NCBI GenBank assembly: GCA_017559445.1
Contig: JAFYSJ010000018.1
Location: forward strand, 1-42,224
Reading direction: 5' to 3'
Length of the DNA stretch: 42,224 nucleotides
Origin: Clostridia bacterium
GTDB lineage: Bacteria; Bacillota; Clostridia; RGIG7378
Within the stretch, counting starts at the first letter, position 1. Each line of letters begins with the position of its first letter. Below the pieces are notes generated by a model, which made no database searches, had not been told where the DNA came from, and saw only the letters and a program-made list of their open reading frames with translations. Shown here one piece after another: positions 3,875-35,140 of the stretch. A program made the translations under genes and the position numbers.

Positions 3875-6607
3875 TTATTTCTTCTTGCGAAGGAGCACTA
3901 CTGCTGCAATTGCGCCGCCGACAACCACTACGGTTGCTACAACGATCACTACAACAATCTTCGAATCAGGACCCTCAGACTTATCCTCATCTACAGGCTT
4001 CTCTGTTGGTGCCTGTGTAGGTGCATCTGTCGGAGCTGGTGTTGCTGTAACTTCTGGAGCAGCTGTAGGTGTAGCCTCTGGAGTTGCTGTTGGTGCCTCT
4101 GTAGGTGCTGGAGTAGGTGTTACCTCCTCTGTCACATCTACTGTTACATCCTCAGTTACATCAACTGTTACATCTGGAGTAGGTGTAGGTGTTACTGTTG
4201 GCGCTGGAGTTGCTGTTGCGCTTGGCTTAGGTGTAGCTGTTGGCTTTGGTGTTGCTGTTGGCTTTGGTGTTGCTGTTGCTGCTGGCAAGTTAGTTGTTGT
4301 GTAAACCTGAACTGTTGCAGGTCCAGAAACAACTGTTACATTGGATGTGTTATATCCATCGAATGTGATATTATTACTTGCAATTGTCAAGTTATCAACC
4401 CAAACCTCATCACCCTTCTTAATGCTACCTGTGAACTCAAATGTCAACTGTGTTGCATCCTTAGTAGGCTTAAATGTAAGGAAATAATAATTGTATTTCT
4501 CTACATAGTCCAAGGACTTGTCGAGATTCTGCTCTGCCACAACTTCACCAGTGTTTGTTGTGATCTTAACCTTTGTTGCACCTGCTGGTACCTCAATAGC
4601 TACAGAAACCATGTCATGAACCTTAATAGACAAGTTCTTCAATGTGAAAGACAACTTGGATACAGCAGAATCTGCTCTTACGTGCAATACTTGACCTGTA
4701 ACCTTATCCTCTACTGCTGCAGGAGCATCAGGGATTTCGTTCTTAATACCAGCAATAATATTGTCGATGCTATATGTGGACTCTGTTGAACCAAACTCCT
4801 TAATACCGAAAAGGTATGCTGTTACCTTAGCAACCTGGCAGTTATACATTACCTGGTTGTTAAATACATTTGCGTTCTTACCAATTGCATAAATTGCAAC
4901 GTCCTGCTGAGAGTGACCAGATGTTGTGAACTTACACTTAGTCTTATCTGTCTCCCAACCAGAATTAAGTGTCATTCCACCTGTGTCATGGTCAGCTGTT
5001 ACAACAACAACTGTATCTGGGTTCTCGCAAGCAAACTTAAGAGCAATAGCAACTGCCTCATCTGTTGCATTAGTTTCGCCAACCATCTGTGTCCAATCCT
5101 TGTTATGACCAGCATCGTCTGTCATACCATTCTCAAACATAAGGAAGAAACCTGCATTGTTGTTATTGTCAGATGTCTTCTGGAGCCATGTAAGAGAGAA
5201 TGCCATCATCTGAGAAATTGTAGGTCTAGATGTGGACCAACCATTGTCATATCTTACGTCATCATCAGAACTTGTGGAGTCATCTGCAATATCAATCCAA
5301 ACCTTCTTGTTTGTCATCTTAACAGCAGAGGACCAGTTGGAAGAAATACCAATGTCCTGTCCACTTGGCTTATAGCTATAGTCTGTGAGACCAGGGCCGA
5401 TAAACAAATCAGGAGCAAATGTTCTCATCTCCTGAGCAATCTCAGAGCTGTTGCCACGAACTGCGTGTGCACCACCGTATGTAGCAGGAGTTGCATCGTA
5501 TGCCCAACCTGTTGTAACTACACCGATAATCTTGCCAAGTCTCTCGCGGAGAACCTCTGTAATCTGAGGAATATCCTTGCCATCCTTATCCAAACCCTCG
5601 TAGGAATAACGTGTCTTAAAACCGGAGGAAAGAGCTGTACCTGCAGCTGCAGAGTCTGTTGTTGTCCAGCTATTGCCTTCACCTGGCTTTGGATAAGATA
5701 CTGTCTTATGCTGACCGTAATATGGCATATCGTTCATAATAAGATTGCCAGTATACTTTTCTGTCATTTTAATATCATTCTGGCCCAAACCATCAGAAAT
5801 GATAAAAATCATATTATTCATGTCAACAAATGTTGTTGTCTTAAGAGCTGCAATAAGCTTATCGTTTACATTTGTAACATTAGAGTACATACCTGTAGCT
5901 GCAAGGTTAACCGCAGGCAAGTTCTGTGCACCGCCCAAAGCAGCATTAACCTTCCATGTATAGTACTGTGTATCGTATGTAGGAAGTGTGCCTGTATACT
6001 CATTAGTACCAGGAGTACCTGAAGCTCCTGGAGCTGGTGTTGGATCTGTACCTACGCCAGTATTATCACCAGGCACATAATCTGGAGCGCCCTCTGGCTC
6101 TTCAATTGTAGTTGTTGTAAGAGTTGCTGACTTCCATGCAACTACACCAACCTCGATATCATTAATGCTTACACCGGCAATCAATGAGTCTGGAGAAACA
6201 TTGCCGCCATTTACGTCAATAGAAAGCTCATACTCACCAGCAGCAGCGCTAGACTTTGCAACGCATCTAATGAAATACCAGCCATCTGCAGAAACTGCAA
6301 GAGCGTTATCTGCGATTCTCTTACCAGAGTAAACTTCCTTACCTGTTTCGTTGCCATCTTCATCAAGGTACACAGCCTTTGTACCACTGCTTCTAGCGTA
6401 CATATCAGCGTGACCATTAGATACACCAACAGGCTTTACCCAGAAAGAGATAATGTCTCCTTCTCTAACTGCAGACTTAATCTTTACGCTAACTCTGCTT
6501 GAGTTCTGTGCTTCGAGATTTGTGCAGCTAATTGTACCTGCGTATGCCACTGACATGCAGGATACGATTACTAAAACCGCAACAAGAACTGCCAAAAGTT
6601 TCTTCAT
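3875..6607 (-). CDS. Surface-anchored alkaline phosphatase 1
   Basis: A 910-residue secreted phosphomonoesterase of the PhoA superfamily. Residues 1-23 are a signal peptide; about 25-165 a beta-rich module; 203-620 the catalytic core; 638-770 a second beta-rich module ending in DEVWVDNLTIAS; 776-880 a Thr/Pro stalk with TATPKP repeats; 884-906 a membrane helix followed by RKKK. The core keeps the PhoA ligands: D272 (SDGLG), nucleophile S319 (TTDSAAAG), R384 (HAVRG), E492, D497 and H501 (ENGMTDDAGH), D539/H540 (TADHDTGG) and H565. The E-x4-D-x3-H spacing equals that of E. coli PhoA. There is no LPXTG signal, so it is held by the C-terminal helix. It has its own promoter and terminator; its core is nearly identical to that of phosphatase 2. 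Substrate preference is unknown. Confidence 0.93.
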   Translation of the reverse strand: MKKLLAVLVAVLVIVSCMSVAYAGTISCTNLEAQNSSRVSVKIKSAVREGDIISFWVKPVGVSNGHADMYARSSGTKAVYLDEDGNETGKEVYSGKRIADNALAVSADGWYFIRCVAKSSAAAGEYELSIDVNGGNVSPDSLIAGVSINDIEVGVVAWKSATLTTTTIEEPEGAPDYVPGDNTGVGTDPTPAPGASGTPGTNEYTGTLPTYDTQYYTWKVNAALGGAQNLPAVNLAATGMYSNVTNVNDKLIAALKTTTFVDMNNMIFIISDGLGQNDIKMTEKYTGNLIMNDMPYYGQHKTVSYPKPGEGNSWTTTDSAAAGTALSSGFKTRYSYEGLDKDGKDIPQITEVLRERLGKIIGVVTTGWAYDATPATYGGAHAVRGNSSEIAQEMRTFAPDLFIGPGLTDYSYKPSGQDIGISSNWSSAVKMTNKKVWIDIADDSTSSDDDVRYDNGWSTSRPTISQMMAFSLTWLQKTSDNNNNAGFFLMFENGMTDDAGHNKDWTQMVGETNATDEAVAIALKFACENPDTVVVVTADHDTGGMTLNSGWETDKTKCKFTTSGHSQQDVAIYAIGKNANVFNNQVMYNCQVAKVTAYLFGIKEFGSTESTYSIDNIIAGIKNEIPDAPAAVEDKVTGQVLHVRADSAVSKLSFTLKNLSIKVHDMVSVAIEVPAGATKVKITTNTGEVVAEQNLDKSLDYVEKYNYYFLTFKPTKDATQLTFEFTGSIKKGDEVWVDNLTIASNNITFDGYNTSNVTVVSGPATVQVYTTTNLPAATATPKPTATPKPTATPKPSATATPAPTVTPTPTPDVTVDVTEDVTVDVTEEVTPTPAPTEAPTATPEATPTAAPEVTATPAPTDAPTQAPTEKPVDEDKSEGPDSKIVVVIVVATVVVVGGAIAAVVLLRKKK
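4224..4277 (-). repeat. Three 18-bp tandem repeats in the stalk of phosphatase 1
   Basis: Three consecutive 18-base units (GGCTTTGGTGTTGCTGTT and variants on the plus strand, at 4224, 4242 and 4260) encode repeated TATPKP hexapeptides at the start of the stalk. Two of the three are identical to each other and to units in phosphatase 2, so length change by slippage or recombination is plausible. Confidence 0.85.
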
Positions 6608-6637
6608 AATTCCTCCTAATTTTTGTTATGCCTATCC

Positions 6638-6658
6638 ATTATATTTATCATATCCTAA
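6638..6658 (-). promoter_or_regulatory. Promoter element of alkaline phosphatase 1
   Basis: Reading the minus strand, GATATGATAAATATAAT forms most of a 21-base segment that recurs without change before phosphatase 2 (9538-9518). It offers two overlapping -10 boxes (TATGAT and TATAAT); the -35 region is weak. It lies 30 bases before the ATG, which has AGGAGG. The weak -35 box would fit a need for an activator, but no PhoP-type direct repeat was recognised. Confidence 0.6.
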
Positions 6659-6681
6659 CGTTTAATTAAAATTTTTACAAC

Positions 6682-6718
6682 AAAAAAGAATGCCATCCTA
6701 AAATTAGAATGACATCCT
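6682..6718 (-). terminator. Terminator after alkaline phosphatase 2
   Basis: On the minus strand a 13-pair stem (6718-6706 with 6699-6687, three G-U pairs) with a six-base loop is followed by TTTTTTG. It separates phosphatase 2 from the promoter of phosphatase 1. Confidence 0.8.
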
Positions 6719-6782
6719 TTTATAAATCTAATCAAATATTGTTACGTCTTAAGTTTAAACACTCATTACCTTAACTATTTAA

Positions 6783-9488
6783 TTATTTCTTCTTGCGAAG
6801 GAGTATTACTGCTGCAACTGCGCCACCTACAACCGCTACGGTTGCTACAACGATTACTACAACAACCTTAGAATCAGGACCCTCAGACTTATCCTCATCT
6901 ACAGGCTTCTCTGTTGGTGCCTGTGTAGGTGCATCTGTCGGAGCTACTGTAGGAGTTGGTGTTGCTGTAACCTCTGGTGCTGCTGTAGGAGCATCTGTCG
7001 GAGCTGGTGTAGCTGTTGCCTCAGGAGTTACTGTTGGCTCTACTGTAGGCTCAGGAGTTACTGTTGGTTCTGCTGTAGGCTCTGGAGTAGCAGTTACTGC
7101 AGGAGCTGGTGTTGCTGTTGGCTTTGGTGTTGCTGTTGGCTTTGGTGTTGCTGTTGGTTTAGGTGTAGCTGTTGCACTTGGCAGGTTAGATGTTGTATAA
7201 ACCTGAACTGTTGTATTAGCAGAACCCTTTGCATTTGCTACATTGTAGCTATCAAATGTAATATTTGTGCTTGCAATCAACAAGTTATCGATCCAAATCT
7301 CATCATTCTTCTTAAGACTACCTGTGAACTCAAAAATCAACTGTGTTGCATCCTTAGTAGGCTTAAATGTTAAATAGTAATATGTGTATCTCTCTACGTA
7401 GTTAAGCACACCATCAAAGTTCTGCTGTGCTACAACTTCACCGGAGTTAGTTGTAATCTTAACAGCTGTTGCGCCAGCTGGCACCTGGATAGCAACGGAA
7501 ATCATGTCATGAGACTTCATGGAAAGACCAGACAATGTAAGTGTTACCTTGGATGTTGCTGCATCTGCTCTTACATGTAATACATTGCCAATAACCTTAT
7601 CCTCTACTGCCTCTGGAGCTTCGCCAATGTCATTCTTAACACCAGCAATAATATTGTCGATGTTGTATGCAGACTCTGTAGAACCAAACTCCTTAATACC
7701 AAAGAGATATGCTGTTACCTTACCAACCTGGCAATTCTCCATTACCTGGCCGTCAAATACGTTAGCATTCTTACCAATTGCATAAATTGCAACATTCTGC
7801 TGAGAGTGACCTGTTGTGGACCACTTACACTGAGACTTGTTTGTCTCCCAACCAGACTTAAGTGTTAATCCACCTGTATCATGGTCAGCTGTTACAATAA
7901 CTACAGTATCTGGGTTCTCACATGCAAACTTAAGAGCAATAGCCACTGCCTCATCTGTTGCGTGAACCTCACCGATCTTCTGAATCAAATCATTGTTATG
8001 ACCTGCATCATCTGTCATACCATTTTCAAACATGAGGAAGAAGCCTGCATTATTGTTTTTATCAGATGTCTTCTGAAGCCATGTAAGAGAGAATGCCATC
8101 ATCTGAGAAATTGTAGGTCTAGATGTGGACCAACCATTATCATATCTTACGTCATCGTCAGAGCTTGTAGAGTCATCTGCAATATCAATCCAAACCTTCT
8201 TGTTTGTCATCTTAACGGCAGAGGACCAGTTAGAAGAAATACCAATATCCTGTCCACTTGGCTTATAGCTATAGTCTGTAAGACCGGGGCCGATAAACAA
8301 ATCTGGAGCAAATGTTCTCATCTCCTGAGCAATCTCAGAGCTGTTGCCACGAACTGCGTGTGCACCGCCGAAATCAGCAGGTGTTGCATCATATGCCCAT
8401 CCTGTTGTAACTACGCCGATAATCTTGCCAAGTCTCTCACGGAGAACCTCTGTAATCTGAGGAACATCCTTGCCGTCCTTATCCAAACCTTCGTAGTAAT
8501 ATCTTGTCTTAATACCAGAAGCAAGAGCAGTACCTGCAGCTGCAGAGTCTGTTGTTGTCCAGCTAAGTCCGCCTTCCTTTACGTAGGACAATGTCTTATG
8601 CTGACCATAATATGGCATATCATTCATAATAAGATTGCCAGCATACTTTTCTGCCATTGTAATATCATTCTGACCCAAACCATCGGAGATGATAAAGATC
8701 ATATTATTCATGTCCACAAATGTTGTTGTCTGAAGAGCTGCAATAAGCTTATCGTTTACATTTGTAACGTTAGTATATTTACCTGTAGCAGCAAGGTTAA
8801 CTGCGGGCAAATTCTGAGCACCACCCAAAGCAGCATTTACCTTCCAGGTGTAATACTGTGTATCGTATGTAGGAAGTGTACCTGTAAATTCGCTTGTTCC
8901 AGGAACATTAGCGGAATCGCCATTACCGGAACCATTATTTTCATCGTGTTTTGCCCAATCATATGTCAATGCTGTGTCTGCAACAGTAATAGACTTTTTA
9001 GCTGCATTAATTGTTGGCTTTGCATACCAATCAGCACAATTTGAAACGGCTGCACTAATATCAGTAGCTGTACCATTAATTGCAATGCCTCTTACATAAA
9101 CTACATCGCCTGTCTTAGATGAAGATGTAAGCTTAATAGCCCACATGGAACTGTCAGCAGAAGCCTCTGCTCTAACTGCATACCAGCCATCACCAAGAGA
9201 TACTGTTCCATCTCCATTGCCAAACTTTTCACTCAAATATGTGTTAGATCCATCTCTAACCTGAATTGTACAGTTAGCATCATAAGGCTTAATATAAAAT
9301 GTGATTATATCGCCGGACTTTACGGACTGATTAAACAAAAACTGGAATCTGCCACTATCTGCAGAACAATCCACTGCTTTAATCTCTACACAATCTACAG
9401 TTGCTGCAGATGCACAGAGTGGAACAGCTACCATAGCAATTGTAAGCACCAGTGCCATAACAAGAGCTCTAATTGAAAGCTTCTTCAT
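6783..9488 (-). CDS. Surface-anchored alkaline phosphatase 2
   Basis: A 901-residue paralogue of phosphatase 1 with the same order: signal peptide (1-28), N-terminal beta module (30-160), catalytic core (200-620), C-terminal beta module (636-765), Thr/Pro stalk (770-870), membrane helix (874-897) and RKKK end. Active-site residues are D269, S315, R380, E488, D493, H497, D535, H536 and H561. The core, the second module and the juxtamembrane DEDKSEGPDSK are almost the same as in phosphatase 1, while the first module differs and is closer to that of phosphatase 3. That points to recent duplication with exchange or divergence of the first module. It is monocistronic, with AGGAGG at the start and the shared promoter element. 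It would act outside the membrane, releasing phosphate from organic esters. Confidence 0.93.
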   Translation of the reverse strand: MKKLSIRALVMALVLTIAMVAVPLCASAATVDCVEIKAVDCSADSGRFQFLFNQSVKSGDIITFYIKPYDANCTIQVRDGSNTYLSEKFGNGDGTVSLGDGWYAVRAEASADSSMWAIKLTSSSKTGDVVYVRGIAINGTATDISAAVSNCADWYAKPTINAAKKSITVADTALTYDWAKHDENNGSGNGDSANVPGTSEFTGTLPTYDTQYYTWKVNAALGGAQNLPAVNLAATGKYTNVTNVNDKLIAALQTTTFVDMNNMIFIISDGLGQNDITMAEKYAGNLIMNDMPYYGQHKTLSYVKEGGLSWTTTDSAAAGTALASGIKTRYYYEGLDKDGKDVPQITEVLRERLGKIIGVVTTGWAYDATPADFGGAHAVRGNSSEIAQEMRTFAPDLFIGPGLTDYSYKPSGQDIGISSNWSSAVKMTNKKVWIDIADDSTSSDDDVRYDNGWSTSRPTISQMMAFSLTWLQKTSDKNNNAGFFLMFENGMTDDAGHNNDLIQKIGEVHATDEAVAIALKFACENPDTVVIVTADHDTGGLTLKSGWETNKSQCKWSTTGHSQQNVAIYAIGKNANVFDGQVMENCQVGKVTAYLFGIKEFGSTESAYNIDNIIAGVKNDIGEAPEAVEDKVIGNVLHVRADAATSKVTLTLSGLSMKSHDMISVAIQVPAGATAVKITTNSGEVVAQQNFDGVLNYVERYTYYYLTFKPTKDATQLIFEFTGSLKKNDEIWIDNLLIASTNITFDSYNVANAKGSANTTVQVYTTSNLPSATATPKPTATPKPTATPKPTATPAPAVTATPEPTAEPTVTPEPTVEPTVTPEATATPAPTDAPTAAPEVTATPTPTVAPTDAPTQAPTEKPVDEDKSEGPDSKVVVVIVVATVAVVGGAVAAVILLRKKK
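7120..7173 (-). repeat. Three 18-bp tandem repeats in the stalk of phosphatase 2
   Basis: Units at 7120, 7138 and 7156 match the 18-base units of phosphatase 1 at 4224-4277, two of them exactly. They encode TATPKP repeats. The tracts are short enough to vary in copy number between strains. Confidence 0.85.
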
Positions 9489-9517
9489 AATTCCTCCTAA
9501 ATTTATGTTATGTGAAA

Positions 9518-9538
9518 ATTATATTTATCATATCCTAA
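9518..9538 (-). promoter_or_regulatory. Promoter element of alkaline phosphatase 2
   Basis: The same 21-base element as at 6658-6638, 30 bases before the ATG; the flanks have diverged while this block has not. TATAAT at its 3' end is the likely -10 box. Confidence 0.6.
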
Positions 9539-9561
9539 TGCAAAATTAAAACATACACAAC

Positions 9562-9587
9562 AAAATAGTGCCTTTCGGCACTATTTT
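9562..9587 (-). terminator. Terminator after alkaline phosphatase 3
   Basis: AAAATAGTGCC and GGCACTATTTT form a perfect 11-pair stem with a four-base loop. The T-run is inside the stem, so it can work in both directions. It lies 8 bases past the stop of phosphatase 3. Confidence 0.85.
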
Positions 9588-9594
9588 GCATAAT

Positions 9595-12312
9595 TTATTT
9601 CTTCTTTCTATAGGCTCTTGCGACAAATATGGAAAGAGCTGTTCCAAATCCTATAACAATAACAACTATTGGCACTGTCTTTCCCACATTTATATTGCTA
9701 CTCTGCTCCGCAGGTTTCTCTGTCGGCTTCGGTGTGGCCGTTACTTCTGGGGCTGTGGTAGCAGTAGGTTCTGCTGTAGGCACTTCAGTAGGAGCTGGTA
9801 TAGCTGTTGCCTCAGGTGTAACTGTTGGCTCTACTGTAGGCTCTGGAGTTGCTGTGGGCTCCGGTGTAGGTGCTACCGTTGGCTCTGGTGTAGCTGTAGG
9901 TACAGGAGTAGCTGTCACCGTCGGCTTTGGAGTAGCTGTTGCTGCTGGCTTAGGCGTAGATGTTGGCTTAGGTGTTGGTGTTGCAAGTGGAGGCAAACTA
10001 TTTGATGGGTATACCATAATAGTATTTTTTCCTGTTGCAGCAACCTTCTTTACATCATATCCGTCAAAAGGCGTCTTGGCGGTGCCAACCTCCATATTAT
10101 CAAACCAAACCTCATCATTTAATGCAAAAGATCCTGTAAATACAAACACCATCTTAGTTGCACTAGTGGGAGCCTTAAAGGAAACACGATAAAAGCCTCC
10201 ATCTGCTACATAGTTCATGGCCTTGTTCAAAGTTTGCTCTACCAATACAGTTCCATTTTCATTTGTAATCTTCAAAGTTTTTGCACCGGATGGCACCATA
10301 ATTGATATTGCAACCATGGTATCTTTAGCAAAACTCACATCATTAAATGTAACTGTCAAACCTGTAGCTGCAGCATCTGTTCGAACGTGGAGAATCTGGC
10401 CTGCTGGCTTATCATTTTTAGTCTCCATTTCACCAAGATCATCAACCTTAACTCCCTTAAGGATTTCGTCCACATTGTACTTCTCATCTGGATCACCAAA
10501 TCCTGTAATACCAAGAACGCGAGTTAAAATCTTAGGAATTTGACAATTGTGCAATGTCTGTTCGTCAAAAAGCTCACCGTACTTACCAATTGCTCTAATA
10601 GCAACAAGTTGCTGAGAATGGCTTGTAGTTGTAAAAGTACATCTATTAATGTTTGTCTCCCAGCCTGACTTTAATATCATACCGCCTGTGTCATGGTCTG
10701 CTGTAACCAAAACCAGTGTGTCCGGATTTTCACAAGCAAACTTAAGAGCAACAGCCACTGCCTCATCTGTGGCCTGTACTTCAGTAACTACTAAGTTAAA
10801 GTCATTGCTATGACCTGCCCAATCTGTTACTGCATTTTCGAACATAAGGAAGAATCCAACATTGTTATTTGCGTCAGATTTTGCCTGAAGCCATTTAAGA
10901 GAAAATGCCATTGCCTTTGAAATTGTAAGAGTACTACTGGAAATTTCACTTGTGGAACCTGAAGTGCCTACAGAAATCCACAACTTATCATTTTTAGATG
11001 TCAAAGCAGCATCCCATGATGTATAAAGTCTAATGTCCTGTCCTGCTAAATAATCCTTTTTCAAAGATGTAAGGGTTGCATTGTAGGAAGAAATTCCGCT
11101 TCCAATCCACAGGTCTGGAGCAAATGTCATCATATCGTGAACGATTTCATCGTTATTTCCACGGATTGCGTGAGAACCTCCAAAGCATGCAGGAGTTGCA
11201 TCGTAGGCGGATCCTGTGGTGTATACACCTATAATCTTTCCAAGCTTTTGTCTAAGAGCTTCTGTAATCTGAGGAATTGTCTTTTGCTTAACGTCAATTC
11301 CCTCATATCCATTTATGGTCTTATAGCCAGAGGAAAGGGCTGTAGCACCTGCTGCAGAATCTGTTGTTGCAAAAGTATCTGTTGTACTGCCTGCTCGAGA
11401 CAATGTGGAAGACTGGCCATGATATGGCATCTGATTCATGATTAAGCTACCACCAAATTTCTCAGAAACTTTCATTCCATTTTGGCCCATGCCGTCAGAA
11501 ATAATGAAGATAATATTATTGGGGTCCACAAATGTTGTTGTGCTAAGGGCCGCAATAAGCTCCTCATTAACATTTGTCACATTTGAGTAACGTCCTGTTG
11601 CTGCCAAGTTAACTGCAGGCAAATTCTGGGCTCCACCTAAGGCTGCATTAACCTTCCATGTATATGGAGCTGCATTGTTTGTGGGCAATGTACCTTCGTA
11701 AATTTCTGGGGCAAAAATACTTACGTCCTCTGCTGGCCATTCATACTCAACGGTATCAGAATCAATATCCAATGTGGTTTCTTCTACAATAATAGCTGGT
11801 TTTTTGTCGTTCACTATCATTGCTGCCAATTCACTGTTTGTCTTTTCAACACCATTTACTGTGAAATTACGGAGGCAAACCACATCTCCTGGATTTGTGG
11901 GTGTAGTGAGGGTGATGAAGCTCTTTGACTTAGAATAGCTTTCATTCAGTTCTCCCGTAGTAGAATCGTAAAGTTCAACAACAACCTTAATGGCATACCA
12001 TCCATCACCAAGAGAAACTGTAGATATTCCTTTTCCAAGGGTCTCGTCAGCAAGAGCTTCTCCGCTGGAGTAACCCCTATATCTAAAACGAATATTATCT
12101 GCTGGAGACTTTAAATAAAAAGTAATTACATCCCCATTTTTTATAGGCTGATTCAATATAAACTGGAATCTTGCCCAGTCTTCGGATGTTTCGCCGGCAG
12201 TAATCTTAACAACATCTACAGATGTAGTGTCCGCCAGGGACATAGTTGGAATAGCCACCAAAAGGGCAGCTAAAATGAGAATTGTTGTAAACGCTCTTAC
12301 TATCTTTTTCAT
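9595..12312 (-). CDS. Surface-anchored alkaline phosphatase 3
   Basis: A 905-residue paralogue: signal peptide (1-27), N-terminal beta module (30-170, with RFQFILNQPIKNGDVITFY and GDGWYAIKV), catalytic core (205-620), second beta module (638-772), Thr/Pro stalk (775-868), membrane helix (878-899) and YRKKK. Ligand residues are all kept (D273, S319, R384, E492, D497, H501, D539, H540, H565), but the surroundings differ from 1 and 2: ENAVTDWAGH replaces ENGMTDDAGH, and TSHSQQ replaces TGHSQQ. It lacks the DEDKSEGPDSK juxtamembrane piece. This is clearly an older branch and may prefer another substrate. No clear promoter was found in the 125 bases upstream. Confidence 0.92.
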   Translation of the reverse strand: MKKIVRAFTTILILAALLVAIPTMSLADTTSVDVVKITAGETSEDWARFQFILNQPIKNGDVITFYLKSPADNIRFRYRGYSSGEALADETLGKGISTVSLGDGWYAIKVVVELYDSTTGELNESYSKSKSFITLTTPTNPGDVVCLRNFTVNGVEKTNSELAAMIVNDKKPAIIVEETTLDIDSDTVEYEWPAEDVSIFAPEIYEGTLPTNNAAPYTWKVNAALGGAQNLPAVNLAATGRYSNVTNVNEELIAALSTTTFVDPNNIIFIISDGMGQNGMKVSEKFGGSLIMNQMPYHGQSSTLSRAGSTTDTFATTDSAAGATALSSGYKTINGYEGIDVKQKTIPQITEALRQKLGKIIGVYTTGSAYDATPACFGGSHAIRGNNDEIVHDMMTFAPDLWIGSGISSYNATLTSLKKDYLAGQDIRLYTSWDAALTSKNDKLWISVGTSGSTSEISSSTLTISKAMAFSLKWLQAKSDANNNVGFFLMFENAVTDWAGHSNDFNLVVTEVQATDEAVAVALKFACENPDTLVLVTADHDTGGMILKSGWETNINRCTFTTTSHSQQLVAIRAIGKYGELFDEQTLHNCQIPKILTRVLGITGFGDPDEKYNVDEILKGVKVDDLGEMETKNDKPAGQILHVRTDAAATGLTVTFNDVSFAKDTMVAISIMVPSGAKTLKITNENGTVLVEQTLNKAMNYVADGGFYRVSFKAPTSATKMVFVFTGSFALNDEVWFDNMEVGTAKTPFDGYDVKKVAATGKNTIMVYPSNSLPPLATPTPKPTSTPKPAATATPKPTVTATPVPTATPEPTVAPTPEPTATPEPTVEPTVTPEATAIPAPTEVPTAEPTATTAPEVTATPKPTEKPAEQSSNINVGKTVPIVVIVIGFGTALSIFVARAYRKKK

Positions 12313-18897: not shown

Positions 18898-19986
18898 CTA
18901 AACCAAAATAAAATCTGCCAAACTGTCCATATCCACGAGAACGATGGAGCAAAGCCCCTGATTGTCTGGCACTACAATGCTGATCATCTGACCAGCGCGC
19001 TTTTTGTCTGCACGAATGGCTTGCAAAACCTCTTCCTTGGAAACAGGGCAAACTGTAGGAAGTCCAAGACCATCCAAAATGCGAATCAAATTATCTGTAT
19101 ATCCTGCTGGACACATACCCTTTGCCTCTGCGGAACGGGCCATAACCACCATGCCGATGGCAACGCCCTCGCCGTGCTGTACCTGACCTCCTGTGGCCTT
19201 TTCGATGGCGTGGCCAACTGTGTGTCCAAAGTTAAGGAGCATGCGCTCACCTGTATCTCTTTCGTCCGCCTCAACTACCTGTGCCTTAATGGAAACGCAT
19301 GCCTCGATGAGCTGCTCCAAAATCTGGTGAACCATTTCGCTCTGCTCACCAAAGCTAGGTGTCTTTGCTACCTCGGCCAACTCGTCGGAAAGTTCCATAA
19401 TCTTGGGGTCACGAATGCAACCATACTTAACAACCTCGGCCATGCCACAGGCAACTTCTCTGCCTGGCAATGTGTCCATCGTTGCTGGGTCGATGATAAC
19501 CATGGAAGGTTGCCAGAATGTGCCGATCTGGTTCTTGTGACCACCCATGTTTACGCCAGTTTTGCCGCCAACTGATGCATCTACTGCAGAAAGCAATGTT
19601 GTTGGAATCTGCACGAAACGGATGCCTCTCAAATAGATGGATGCAGCAAAGCCTGCCATATCGCCTGTGATACCACCACCAAGTGCGATGATAATGTCGG
19701 AGCGGGTCATTTCAGATCTCTTAAGCTCGGAAAGAATGCTCTCCACTGTCTTCATGGTCTTGGATTCCTCGCCTGGAGCAAAGGAAAGGGAGCGAGTCTC
19801 AATATGAGCCTCTCTAAGAGCTCTAATTACCTGAGCTCCGTAAATACTCATAACGTTAGCATCGGACACAACAAAACACTTGGCGCCAGGAAATCTTCTG
19901 CCAATTAAGTTGCCCAAGTCTGCCAGCAAACCTGTGCCAACTAAAACGTCATATGGTGTTGATGTATTTACGTGTACGATGTTCAT
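18898..19986 (-). CDS. aroB: 3-dehydroquinate synthase
   Basis: A 362-residue NAD- and metal-dependent enzyme converting DAHP to 3-dehydroquinate, step two of the pathway. GGGITGDMAGFAASIYLRG, the metal and NAD region around SVGGKTGVN, and the histidines of NFGHTVGHAIE are clear. The start at 19986 has AGAGGT upstream, immediately after the CTAG repeat array that separates it from tyrA. Because the array lies between aroB and the operon promoter at 22246-22274, aroB and all genes after it depend on reading through the array unless a promoter lies within it. Confidence 0.96.
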   Translation of the reverse strand: MNIVHVNTSTPYDVLVGTGLLADLGNLIGRRFPGAKCFVVSDANVMSIYGAQVIRALREAHIETRSLSFAPGEESKTMKTVESILSELKRSEMTRSDIIIALGGGITGDMAGFAASIYLRGIRFVQIPTTLLSAVDASVGGKTGVNMGGHKNQIGTFWQPSMVIIDPATMDTLPGREVACGMAEVVKYGCIRDPKIMELSDELAEVAKTPSFGEQSEMVHQILEQLIEACVSIKAQVVEADERDTGERMLLNFGHTVGHAIEKATGGQVQHGEGVAIGMVVMARSAEAKGMCPAGYTDNLIRILDGLGLPTVCPVSKEEVLQAIRADKKRAGQMISIVVPDNQGLCSIVLVDMDSLADFILV

Positions 19987-20004
19987 GTGATACCTCTTTT
20001 TTTA

Positions 20005-20328
20005 GTGTTCCGTTCGTTTCACTCACTAACAATCCGCTCGATTCTCTCGCTAGTGGTCCGAGTGCAAGCACTCTAGTAATCGCTCGCGTTGCTCACTAGC
20101 GCAGCGGTTCACTAGCGAATGCGGCTCACTAGCCGAAGGCGGTCACTAGCGAATGCAATGAGCGGCCACTAGCAAGCTCTGCTTGCGGTTCACTAGCGCA
20201 GCGACCTACTAGCGTAGCGGCTCACTAGCGAATGCAATGAGCGACCACTAGCCGAAGGCGGCCACTAGCAACGCAGTTGCGGCCTACTAGACGAAGGCGG
20301 CCACTAGCAAGCTCTGCTTGCGGTTCAC
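20005..20328. repeat. CTAG-phased hairpin repeat array
   Basis: Fourteen CTAG tetranucleotides occur between 20050 and 20307 at spacings of 23, 23, 16, 17, 17, 23, 24, 16, 16, 23, 17, 22 and 17 bases. Most units begin CACTAGC and contain a small palindrome: GCAAGC-TCT-GCTTGC, GCAAC-GCA-GTTGC, GCCG-AAGG-CGGC or short GCGCAGC/GCGTAGC forms; CGAATGCAATGAGCGG recurs with little or no change. The array abuts the tyrA stop codon at 20329 and ends just before the aroB ribosome site. No open frame of note crosses it. It could act on mRNA folding, stability or transcription between tyrA and aroB, or be a mobile repeat. Confidence 0.85.
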
Positions 20329-21180
20329 TTAATTTCTCCTCGGTCCTGGCTTTGAAATCTCACGCTTTGTGGCTGTGCTCTCTGCCATGAGTGCCTTCAA
20401 AGTGTCCTTGTCCTCTTCCAATATCGCTGTTCTATACTTCTGCAGGTCTGCAATAAGTCTATCTACCTCAGGAATCAAATAATCCTTGTTTTCCACAAAG
20501 ATATCGCTCCACATCTGGCCATTAATAACAGCAACTCTAGTCATGTCCCTAAAGGAACCAGCAGAAAGTCCTCTGTGCTCCCTAGCTGTAGGGCTCATTA
20601 CGTATGCAGATGAAAGTACGTGAGCCAACTGAGATGTGTAGGCAATAATCCTATCGTGCTCAGCAGGTGACTTAAGGGTAACTGTGCCAAATCCAATTTC
20701 TAAGAAAAACTTTTTAATATCGGACAAAAGCAACAGGTCCACGTCGCTTTCTGGTGTCAAAATCATGGATGCTGAATTAAACAAGTTTGCATTGGCTGCT
20801 GTGTAACCCCAAACCTCTCTACCTGCCATGGGGTGACCGCCGATAAATGTCCAGCCATACTTTTCACCAAGGGCTCTTCCCTTTTGACAAATGGCGCGCT
20901 TAATACCGCTACAGTCAATAACAACAGTCTTGGGGCTAATAGATGGAGCCATTTCCTCGATTACCTTAAGGCAAACCTCAGGGTAAACTGCGATCATCAA
21001 AATATCGCAATCCTTCAAGTTTTCGTCAGTCAAAGGGCCATCAACATAGCCAAGGAGCATGTCTCTCTCCAAAGCCTCTGGATTAATGTCCTTTGCATAA
21101 ACTGTATGCTGAGAATTTTTCTTAATGGCACCGGCCATGGAGCCGCCAATGATACCTAATCCAACAATTCCTATTTGCAT
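20329..21180 (-). CDS. tyrA: Prephenate dehydrogenase
   Basis: A 283-residue NAD(P)-dependent enzyme that oxidatively decarboxylates prephenate to 4-hydroxyphenylpyruvate for tyrosine. The N-terminal GLGIIGGSMAGAI is the Rossmann dinucleotide loop; GGHPMAGRE and the TSQLAHVLSSAYV helix are typical of the family. There is no C-terminal ACT domain, so feedback control by tyrosine probably falls on another enzyme, such as AroF. It starts two bases after the aroF stop. The stop codon is joined directly to the repeat array. Arogenate use instead of prephenate cannot be excluded. Confidence 0.93.
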   Translation of the reverse strand: MQIGIVGLGIIGGSMAGAIKKNSQHTVYAKDINPEALERDMLLGYVDGPLTDENLKDCDILMIAVYPEVCLKVIEEMAPSISPKTVVIDCSGIKRAICQKGRALGEKYGWTFIGGHPMAGREVWGYTAANANLFNSASMILTPESDVDLLLLSDIKKFFLEIGFGTVTLKSPAEHDRIIAYTSQLAHVLSSAYVMSPTAREHRGLSAGSFRDMTRVAVINGQMWSDIFVENKDYLIPEVDRLIADLQKYRTAILEEDKDTLKALMAESTATKREISKPGPRRN

Positions 21181-34980: not shown

Positions 34981-35020
34981 AAACGCTCGTCTCCAAACGG
35001 AAACGAGCGTTTTTGTTTTT
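34981..35020 (+). terminator. Terminator after the first M29 gene
   Basis: AAACGCTCGT (34981-34990) and ACGAGCGTTT (35003-35012) pair perfectly over a twelve-base loop and run into TTGTTTTT. Confidence 0.9.
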
Positions 35021-35035
35021 ATAAAAGACTTTCCA

Positions 35036-35140
35036 TCACTAGCAACGCAGTTGCGGCCACTAGCCGCAGGCGGCTCACTAGCGAATGCAATGAGCGGCCA
35101 CTAGCAAGCTCTGCTTGCGGCTCACTAACGTAGCGTCTTC
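35036..35140. repeat. Second CTAG-phased repeat tract
   Basis: CTAG occurs at 35039, 35060, 35078 and 35101 and CTAA at 35125, giving steps of 21, 18, 23 and 24 bases. The units GCAACGCAGTTGCGGC, GCGAATGCAATGAGCGGC and GCAAGCTCTGCTTGCGG are the same as units in the array at 20005-20328. The tract touches the stop codon of the aldo/keto reductase gene (35141), as the larger array touches that of tyrA. Confidence 0.85.

Follow-up and report, generated by a model that had tools for sequence, protein, structure and literature searches.

Phased mini-hairpin arrays dispersed through a Clostridia genome, one of them between tyrA and aroB

The window analysed here, 42,224 nucleotides of a Clostridia bacterium (GCA_017559445.1, contig JAFYSJ010000018.1, positions 1 to 42,224), carries an array of short hairpin-forming units between a tyrA-like and an aroB-like gene, hereafter the aro array. 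On balance we think it probable that this array is one copy of a recently spread, species-specific family of hairpin arrays, selfish or near-neutral, that acts as single-stranded DNA. The family is dispersed through the genome and absent from the orthologous sites of a sister species; its hairpins are constrained on a single strand, with compensatory changes; blocks of units have been duplicated locally within arrays, and units assort nearly at random between arrays. Copying would use a single DNA strand that has folded into hairpins, in the manner of REP/BIME elements and mitochondrial GC clusters.

Anatomy of the array between tyrA and aroB

The aro array fills the gap between two minus-strand genes, running from directly after the tyrA stop codon to the aroB ribosome site, and is built of two opposed halves that meet head to head at about 20091, with units otherwise co-oriented. 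The features of the locus are:

18898–19986, minus strand: aroB-like gene, which follows the array and is read in the direction of the operon
20002–20096, minus strand: opposed, shorter half of the array, which abuts the aroB ribosome site with its 3′ end, CACTAA
20026–20012, minus strand: hairpin GTGAGTGAAACGAAC of the minus half
20050–20036, minus strand: hairpin GCGAGAGAATCGAGC of the minus half
20073–20060, minus strand: hairpin GAGTGCTTGCACTC of the minus half
20096–20082, minus strand: hairpin GTGAGCAACGCGAGC of the minus half
20091–20328, plus strand: main half of the array, 12 co-oriented units of ACTA, hairpin and linker, with CTAG at 20096 to 20304
20127–20143, plus strand: one type B unit, with a GNA loop in its GCC-GAA-GGC mini-hairpin
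20144–20166, plus strand: one type K unit, whose hairpin GC-[GA]-AT-GCA-AT-[GA]-GC contains tandem G.A pairs
20167–20190, plus strand: one type G unit, made up of the hairpin GCAAGC-TCT-GCTTGC and its linker
20329–21180, minus strand: tyrA-like gene, whose TAA stop codon (20331–20329) adjoins the array

By aroF/aroB synteny and similarity, the tyrA-like gene is a putative prephenate dehydrogenase. An earlier reading of the sequence alone (the sequence-only reading) had described a CTAG-phased array directly after the tyrA stop, separating tyrA from aroB, and both its place and its density are borne out: CTAG occurs 14 times within 20050–20307 (258 bases), at steps of 23, 23, 16, 17, 17, 23, 24, 16, 16, 23, 17, 22 and 17 bases, for which the Poisson chance of at least 14 occurrences is ~3e-18 given a window background of 1.34 CTAG per kb outside arrays. 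The tetranucleotide is otherwise scarce (74 found against 145 expected in shuffles). The array is real, but CTAG itself is secondary. Each unit of 15–24 bp consists of ACTA, a mini-hairpin and a short linker (commonly GGYTC or GGCCT), and what stays constant along the array is ACTA, following a linker such as GGCTC, GGTTC or GGCCT; CTAG is a by-product that arises where ACTA runs into a hairpin whose first base is G, and it is missing from units of type H (ACTA-ACGAGC...).

Across the arrays parsed in this genome, 418 of the 428 units belong to 11 hairpin types that have one linker and one orientation in common: GC-NNN-GC, GCC-GAA-GGC, GGC-GNA-GCC, GCAAC-GNA-GTTGC, GGACC-GAA-GGTCC, GCACC-NNN-GGTGC, GCAAGC-TYY-GCTTGC, ACGAGC-TTT-GCTCGT, GCGC-GNNA-GCGC, GAACGC-AAC-GCGTTC and type K. 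Change per site amounts to 1.2% in stems and 13.9% in loops; types were assigned by their stems, which favours low stem change, yet only 10 units remained unassigned. As the sequence-only reading had held, the array is not a CRISPR, since its units are 15–24 bp long, the same hairpins recur and there are no unique spacers. A coding array was considered and dropped, since stop codons occur in the linkers and the units do not come in lengths divisible by three. Within the window, an Rfam scan matched no family and no tRNA genes were found.

Dispersal in one genome and empty sites in a sister species

In the 1.68-Mb genome, CACTAGC occurs 475 times against 41 for its reversed control. From 370 kb of stretches holding 248 of these 475 sites we parsed 45 arrays, a sample biased to arrays that hold a type G unit, as the stretches were picked via the first listed CACTAGC places and type G units; extrapolating from the share of sites sampled, we estimate about 85 arrays in the whole genome. 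Arrays range from 3 to about 20 units, and they are intergenic, with one of the 45 overlapping a called open reading frame (genes were called with our own codon-score script, and no annotation was used). The window itself holds a second, smaller member of 4–5 units (35037–35136, plus strand), placed between two convergent genes beside a terminator-like hairpin (about 34984–35015). Head-to-head pairing also recurs: adjoining opposed arrays turn their 3′ ends outward to the genes at 20091 in the window, in stretch L019 (9395–9423) and in stretch L037 (4445–4452).

The one sister species compared, a congener, has CACTAGC at chance frequency (18 against 32 for the reversed control). Arrays were absent from the ten orthologous sites inspected there, which makes 11 empty loci with the tyrA–aroB site, where the sister reads TAA TTGGCAGGAGGTAGACC ATG, a gap of 17 nt. 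In the window, TAA is followed by about 310 bases of array and then by AAAAAAAGAGGTATCAC ATG. On this sequence comparison the aro array is a clean insertion that separates the stop codon of tyrA from the ribosome site of aroB. The same gene order at 49 other loci (mostly Clostridia) has gaps mostly below 100 bases. No such arrays were found in 390 other genomes of the class, apart from unrelated repeats, nor in GTDB, viral contig, plasmid and phage collections scanned with a pattern that occurs 43 times in this genome's stretches. Related arrays, which the sequence-only reading had proposed to look for elsewhere in the genome, are therefore present, but position is not conserved in the close relative, and a conserved regulatory role at the aro operon is not supported. 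By lengthening the tyrA–aroB gap from about 20 to about 340 bases, the array probably has little or modest effect on aroB expression.

Probable folding of one strand and competing explanations

Loop sequences indicate which strand folds. Of the 237 perfect units in types A–E, 223 have a GNA loop; G opens the loop in 223 and A closes it in 232, with the middle base freely C, A or T, and the four-base loops of perfect type I units are GNNA in 22/22. These loops track stem length: GNA or GNNA is found on 187 of 200 units with stems of 2–4 bp and on 0 of 67 with 6-bp stems, as if weak stems were obliged to pair with strong loops. They also track strand, with 245 of the 391 hairpin units outside type K carrying them on the array strand against 19 on the opposite strand. 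Type K, seemingly unpaired, folds as GC-[GA]-NN-GNA-NN-[GA]-GC with two tandem G.A pairs, and shows compensatory changes both in its inner pairs (GT/AC, AT/AT, GA/TC, AC/GT) and in its outer pairs (GC/GC or GT/AC); this fold with a GNA loop did not occur in 612 kb of gene sequence searched on both strands.

DNA mini-hairpins that set a GNA or GNNA loop on at least two G-C pairs are reported to be extraordinarily stable and nuclease-resistant, GCGAAGC melting at 78 C (PMC4686876), and many of the array hairpins have loops of this kind on such a stem. In a speculative and rather improbable version of a selfish element, fragments ending in GNA-loop hairpins would survive exonucleases, anneal at other arrays through the linker that all units have in common while DNA is replicated or repaired, and be copied in, spreading without a transposase, with selection acting directly on hairpin stability.

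The sequence-only reading had offered three suggestions, the first being a modular RNA structure affecting 3′ ends. Such hairpins, being near-palindromic and hence active either way, might shield or trim the 3′ ends of messenger RNAs or adjust expression between cistrons, as has been suggested for REPs, an account that we regard as unlikely. The aro array does sit inside an operon, and the predicted RNA folding of its transcribed strand is somewhat more favourable than that of shuffled sequence (z −2.2). The 3′ end of an array is its gene-proximal end in 30 of 39 cases (P = 0.001), with stops (26) more often than starts (17) at these ends. The suggestion is nevertheless weakened by several results. 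Orientation is unbiased over the 45 arrays, whether scored against the main coding strand (20:25) or against GC skew (21:24), and array position is not kept in the sister genome. No terminator or promoter was found in the aro array and no hairpin with a U-tract within 19950–20400, which also separates it from clusters of intrinsic terminators. The four-base loops are mostly GATA, GACA and GTCA (21–22 of 23), fitting the GNNA of DNA and rarely the GNRA of RNA. From this loop rule and the lack of orientation bias we infer that it is the DNA, and not its transcript, that folds. Because linkers carry stop codons and there is no terminator, arrays would be tolerated between genes, often at the stop codon. 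As a separate observation, in four stretches (L035 4255, L017 441, L024 4895 and L011 15171) the gene next to an array seems to take its stop codon from the array sequence or to share it by overlap.

A host function at the DNA level seems to us improbable. Arrays might bind a protein (gyrase, a nucleoid protein or a hairpin-binding protein), or they might extrude cruciforms that absorb supercoiling between transcription units. The constant linker and the strong structural constraint across many arrays are what such a role would lead one to expect, and gyrase and IHF bind BIMEs (PMC2817692); against it stand the unconserved positions, a sister species without any arrays and the wide variation in array length. 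A new class of small mobile repeat is the best fit among the three suggestions, in view of dispersal, restriction to a single species, empty sister sites and REP-like anatomy.

The internal order of arrays records how they change. Identical units within arrays recur at lags of 2 to 6 above shuffles (at lag 4, 15 against 2.4), and therefore blocks of 2–6 units are duplicated locally. Two units with the same hairpin stand side by side less often than expected (6 against 20.6), an avoidance to which the collapse of exact tandem units in a short-read assembly might have added. Between loci, unit order is near random. Exact tracts of at least 50 bases (50–74 nt) common to different loci number 8, against 0–4 in shuffles, and block transfer between arrays was rejected as the main mode, this excess being slight. 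Such block duplications, together with the scarcity of multi-unit tracts common to different loci and the failure of SbcD to rise above the cut-off in either genome, would suit a by-product of replication and repair, in which hairpin-driven slippage and template switching without detectable SbcD create and spread arrays that have no element-like identity. We hold this to be quite improbable: the sister is also without a clear SbcD, yet has no arrays, and slippage alone leaves unexplained why the same 11 hairpins, linker and orientation occur at unlinked loci.

Several results weigh against a recently spread family acting as single-stranded DNA. The folding energy of the whole array as DNA is not better than that of shuffled sequence (z 0.30), and the energy tables used (ViennaRNA) give three-base GNA loops no bonus; the claim of mini-hairpin stability rests for these reasons on the literature. 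Target-site duplications are unreadable at the empty sites, the sister being too diverged, and the species is represented by one genome, 96% complete. Insertions of one unit between neighbours that match show no excess (8 against 10.3) and single units outside arrays are nearly absent, so that unit-by-unit insertion is unsupported. Finally, Y1/RAYT, reverse transcriptase, tyrosine and serine recombinase (resolvase), IS110 and TnpB-like domains were undetected in the genome, DDE transposases being among the families not searched. Y1_Tnp (PF01797) was absent from both this genome and the sister and detected in 5 control genomes; Phage_integrase (PF00589; XerC/XerD family) was likewise undetected in both and detected in all 14 control genomes.

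Other repeats lie beside some arrays. Some arrays at separate loci form pairs with a common terminator-like 5′ flank of about 45–53 bases (L018 14810–14860 with L020 11290–11343; L015 around 285 and 3955), which suggests that arrays at times carry their flanks along. On the 5′ side of several arrays lie minisatellite-like AACACTAAACACCAAACACT and a GGAACATAGG element (L016 640–780, L009 15010–15060, L019 9395–9425); the word CACTAA in these flanking elements resembles the array linker, for which they may have been a source. A second intergenic repeat family, GAACCGTGCCTCCCGCGCTTCGGAAGTAGCGGGCGACCTTTGGTTACTTTGGGTCGTTCCAAAGTAAT, has diverged copies in the sister species as well, and some of its members abut arrays. 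Its sites are:

about 500–620 of the window, minus strand: GAACCGTGCCTCCCGCGCTTCGGAAGTAGCGGGCGACCTTTGGTTACTTTGGGTCGTTCCAAAGTAAT family
L009 4718, L011 14976, L012 4144, L014 3043 and L021 5533: GAACCGTGCCTCCCGCGCTTCGGAAGTAGCGGGCGACCTTTGGTTACTTTGGGTCGTTCCAAAGTAAT family in other stretches of this genome
L044 9824 and L054 1761: GAACCGTGCCTCCCGCGCTTCGGAAGTAGCGGGCGACCTTTGGTTACTTTGGGTCGTTCCAAAGTAAT family in stretches of the sister genome

Elsewhere in the window (3875–12312), three adjacent genes of ~900 codons each carry low-complexity tandem repeats toward their 3′ ends.

Comparison with known elements and significance

The arrays resemble REP/BIME elements in being intergenic, hairpin-forming and species-specific, in their hundreds of copies and mosaic clusters, and in the compensatory changes of their stems (PMC2817692, PMC3733652). 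They are short, high-copy intergenic palindromes, with units (15–24 bp) shorter than the usual 20–40 bp of REPs. They differ in having stems of 2–6 bp, with 11 different stems on one linker; in their co-oriented units, where those of BIMEs alternate and arrays are head to head merely as wholes; and in their foot, ACTA(G)/CTAG instead of the REP tag GTAG or CGTC. A cognate RAYT gene was not found in this genome. Integron cassette (attC) arrays are a poor match too, given the undetected tyrosine integrase.

Like the arrays, the GC clusters of yeast mitochondria have no known mobiliser (PMC4478555), and in both, stems are more conserved than loops. Those clusters are organellar, with units of about 40 nt that do not form long arrays of many types on one linker, and a GNA/GNNA loop rule is not described in the portions of that literature available to us. 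The repetitive hairpin elements of sponge mitochondria and LIMP of the alga Lobosphaera are alike in their double and multiple tandem hairpins and lineage-specific invasions (PMC2800124, PMC4524435), and, for the sponge elements, in conserved stems with variable loops; these elements are organellar, and the accessible passages on them mention no linker common to many types of hairpin within long arrays. The array hairpins obey the same loop rule as d(GCGAAGC) and its class of extraordinarily stable DNA mini-hairpins, and include GCGAAGC, GCGCAGC and GCGTAGC themselves as heptamers (PMC4686876). As far as the available extracts of that source extend, such mini-hairpins are known from chemistry and as parts of aptamers, with no genome-wide natural repeat family described. 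We place the array family under the general kind of repetitive hairpin-forming element, because no RAYT gene was found with it, it lacks the foot tag and the alternating orientation of REP/BIME elements, and it is not organellar like the GC clusters.

If a recently spread family acting as single-stranded DNA is the right account, this genome would hold a natural, genome-wide collection of a class of DNA mini-hairpins known mainly from chemistry, and the arrays would be a bacterial counterpart of mitochondrial GC clusters, spread with no transposase that can be recognised. How hairpin repeats multiply without a transposase, an old question, could then be put to the test in a single genome across an estimated 85 independent arrays.
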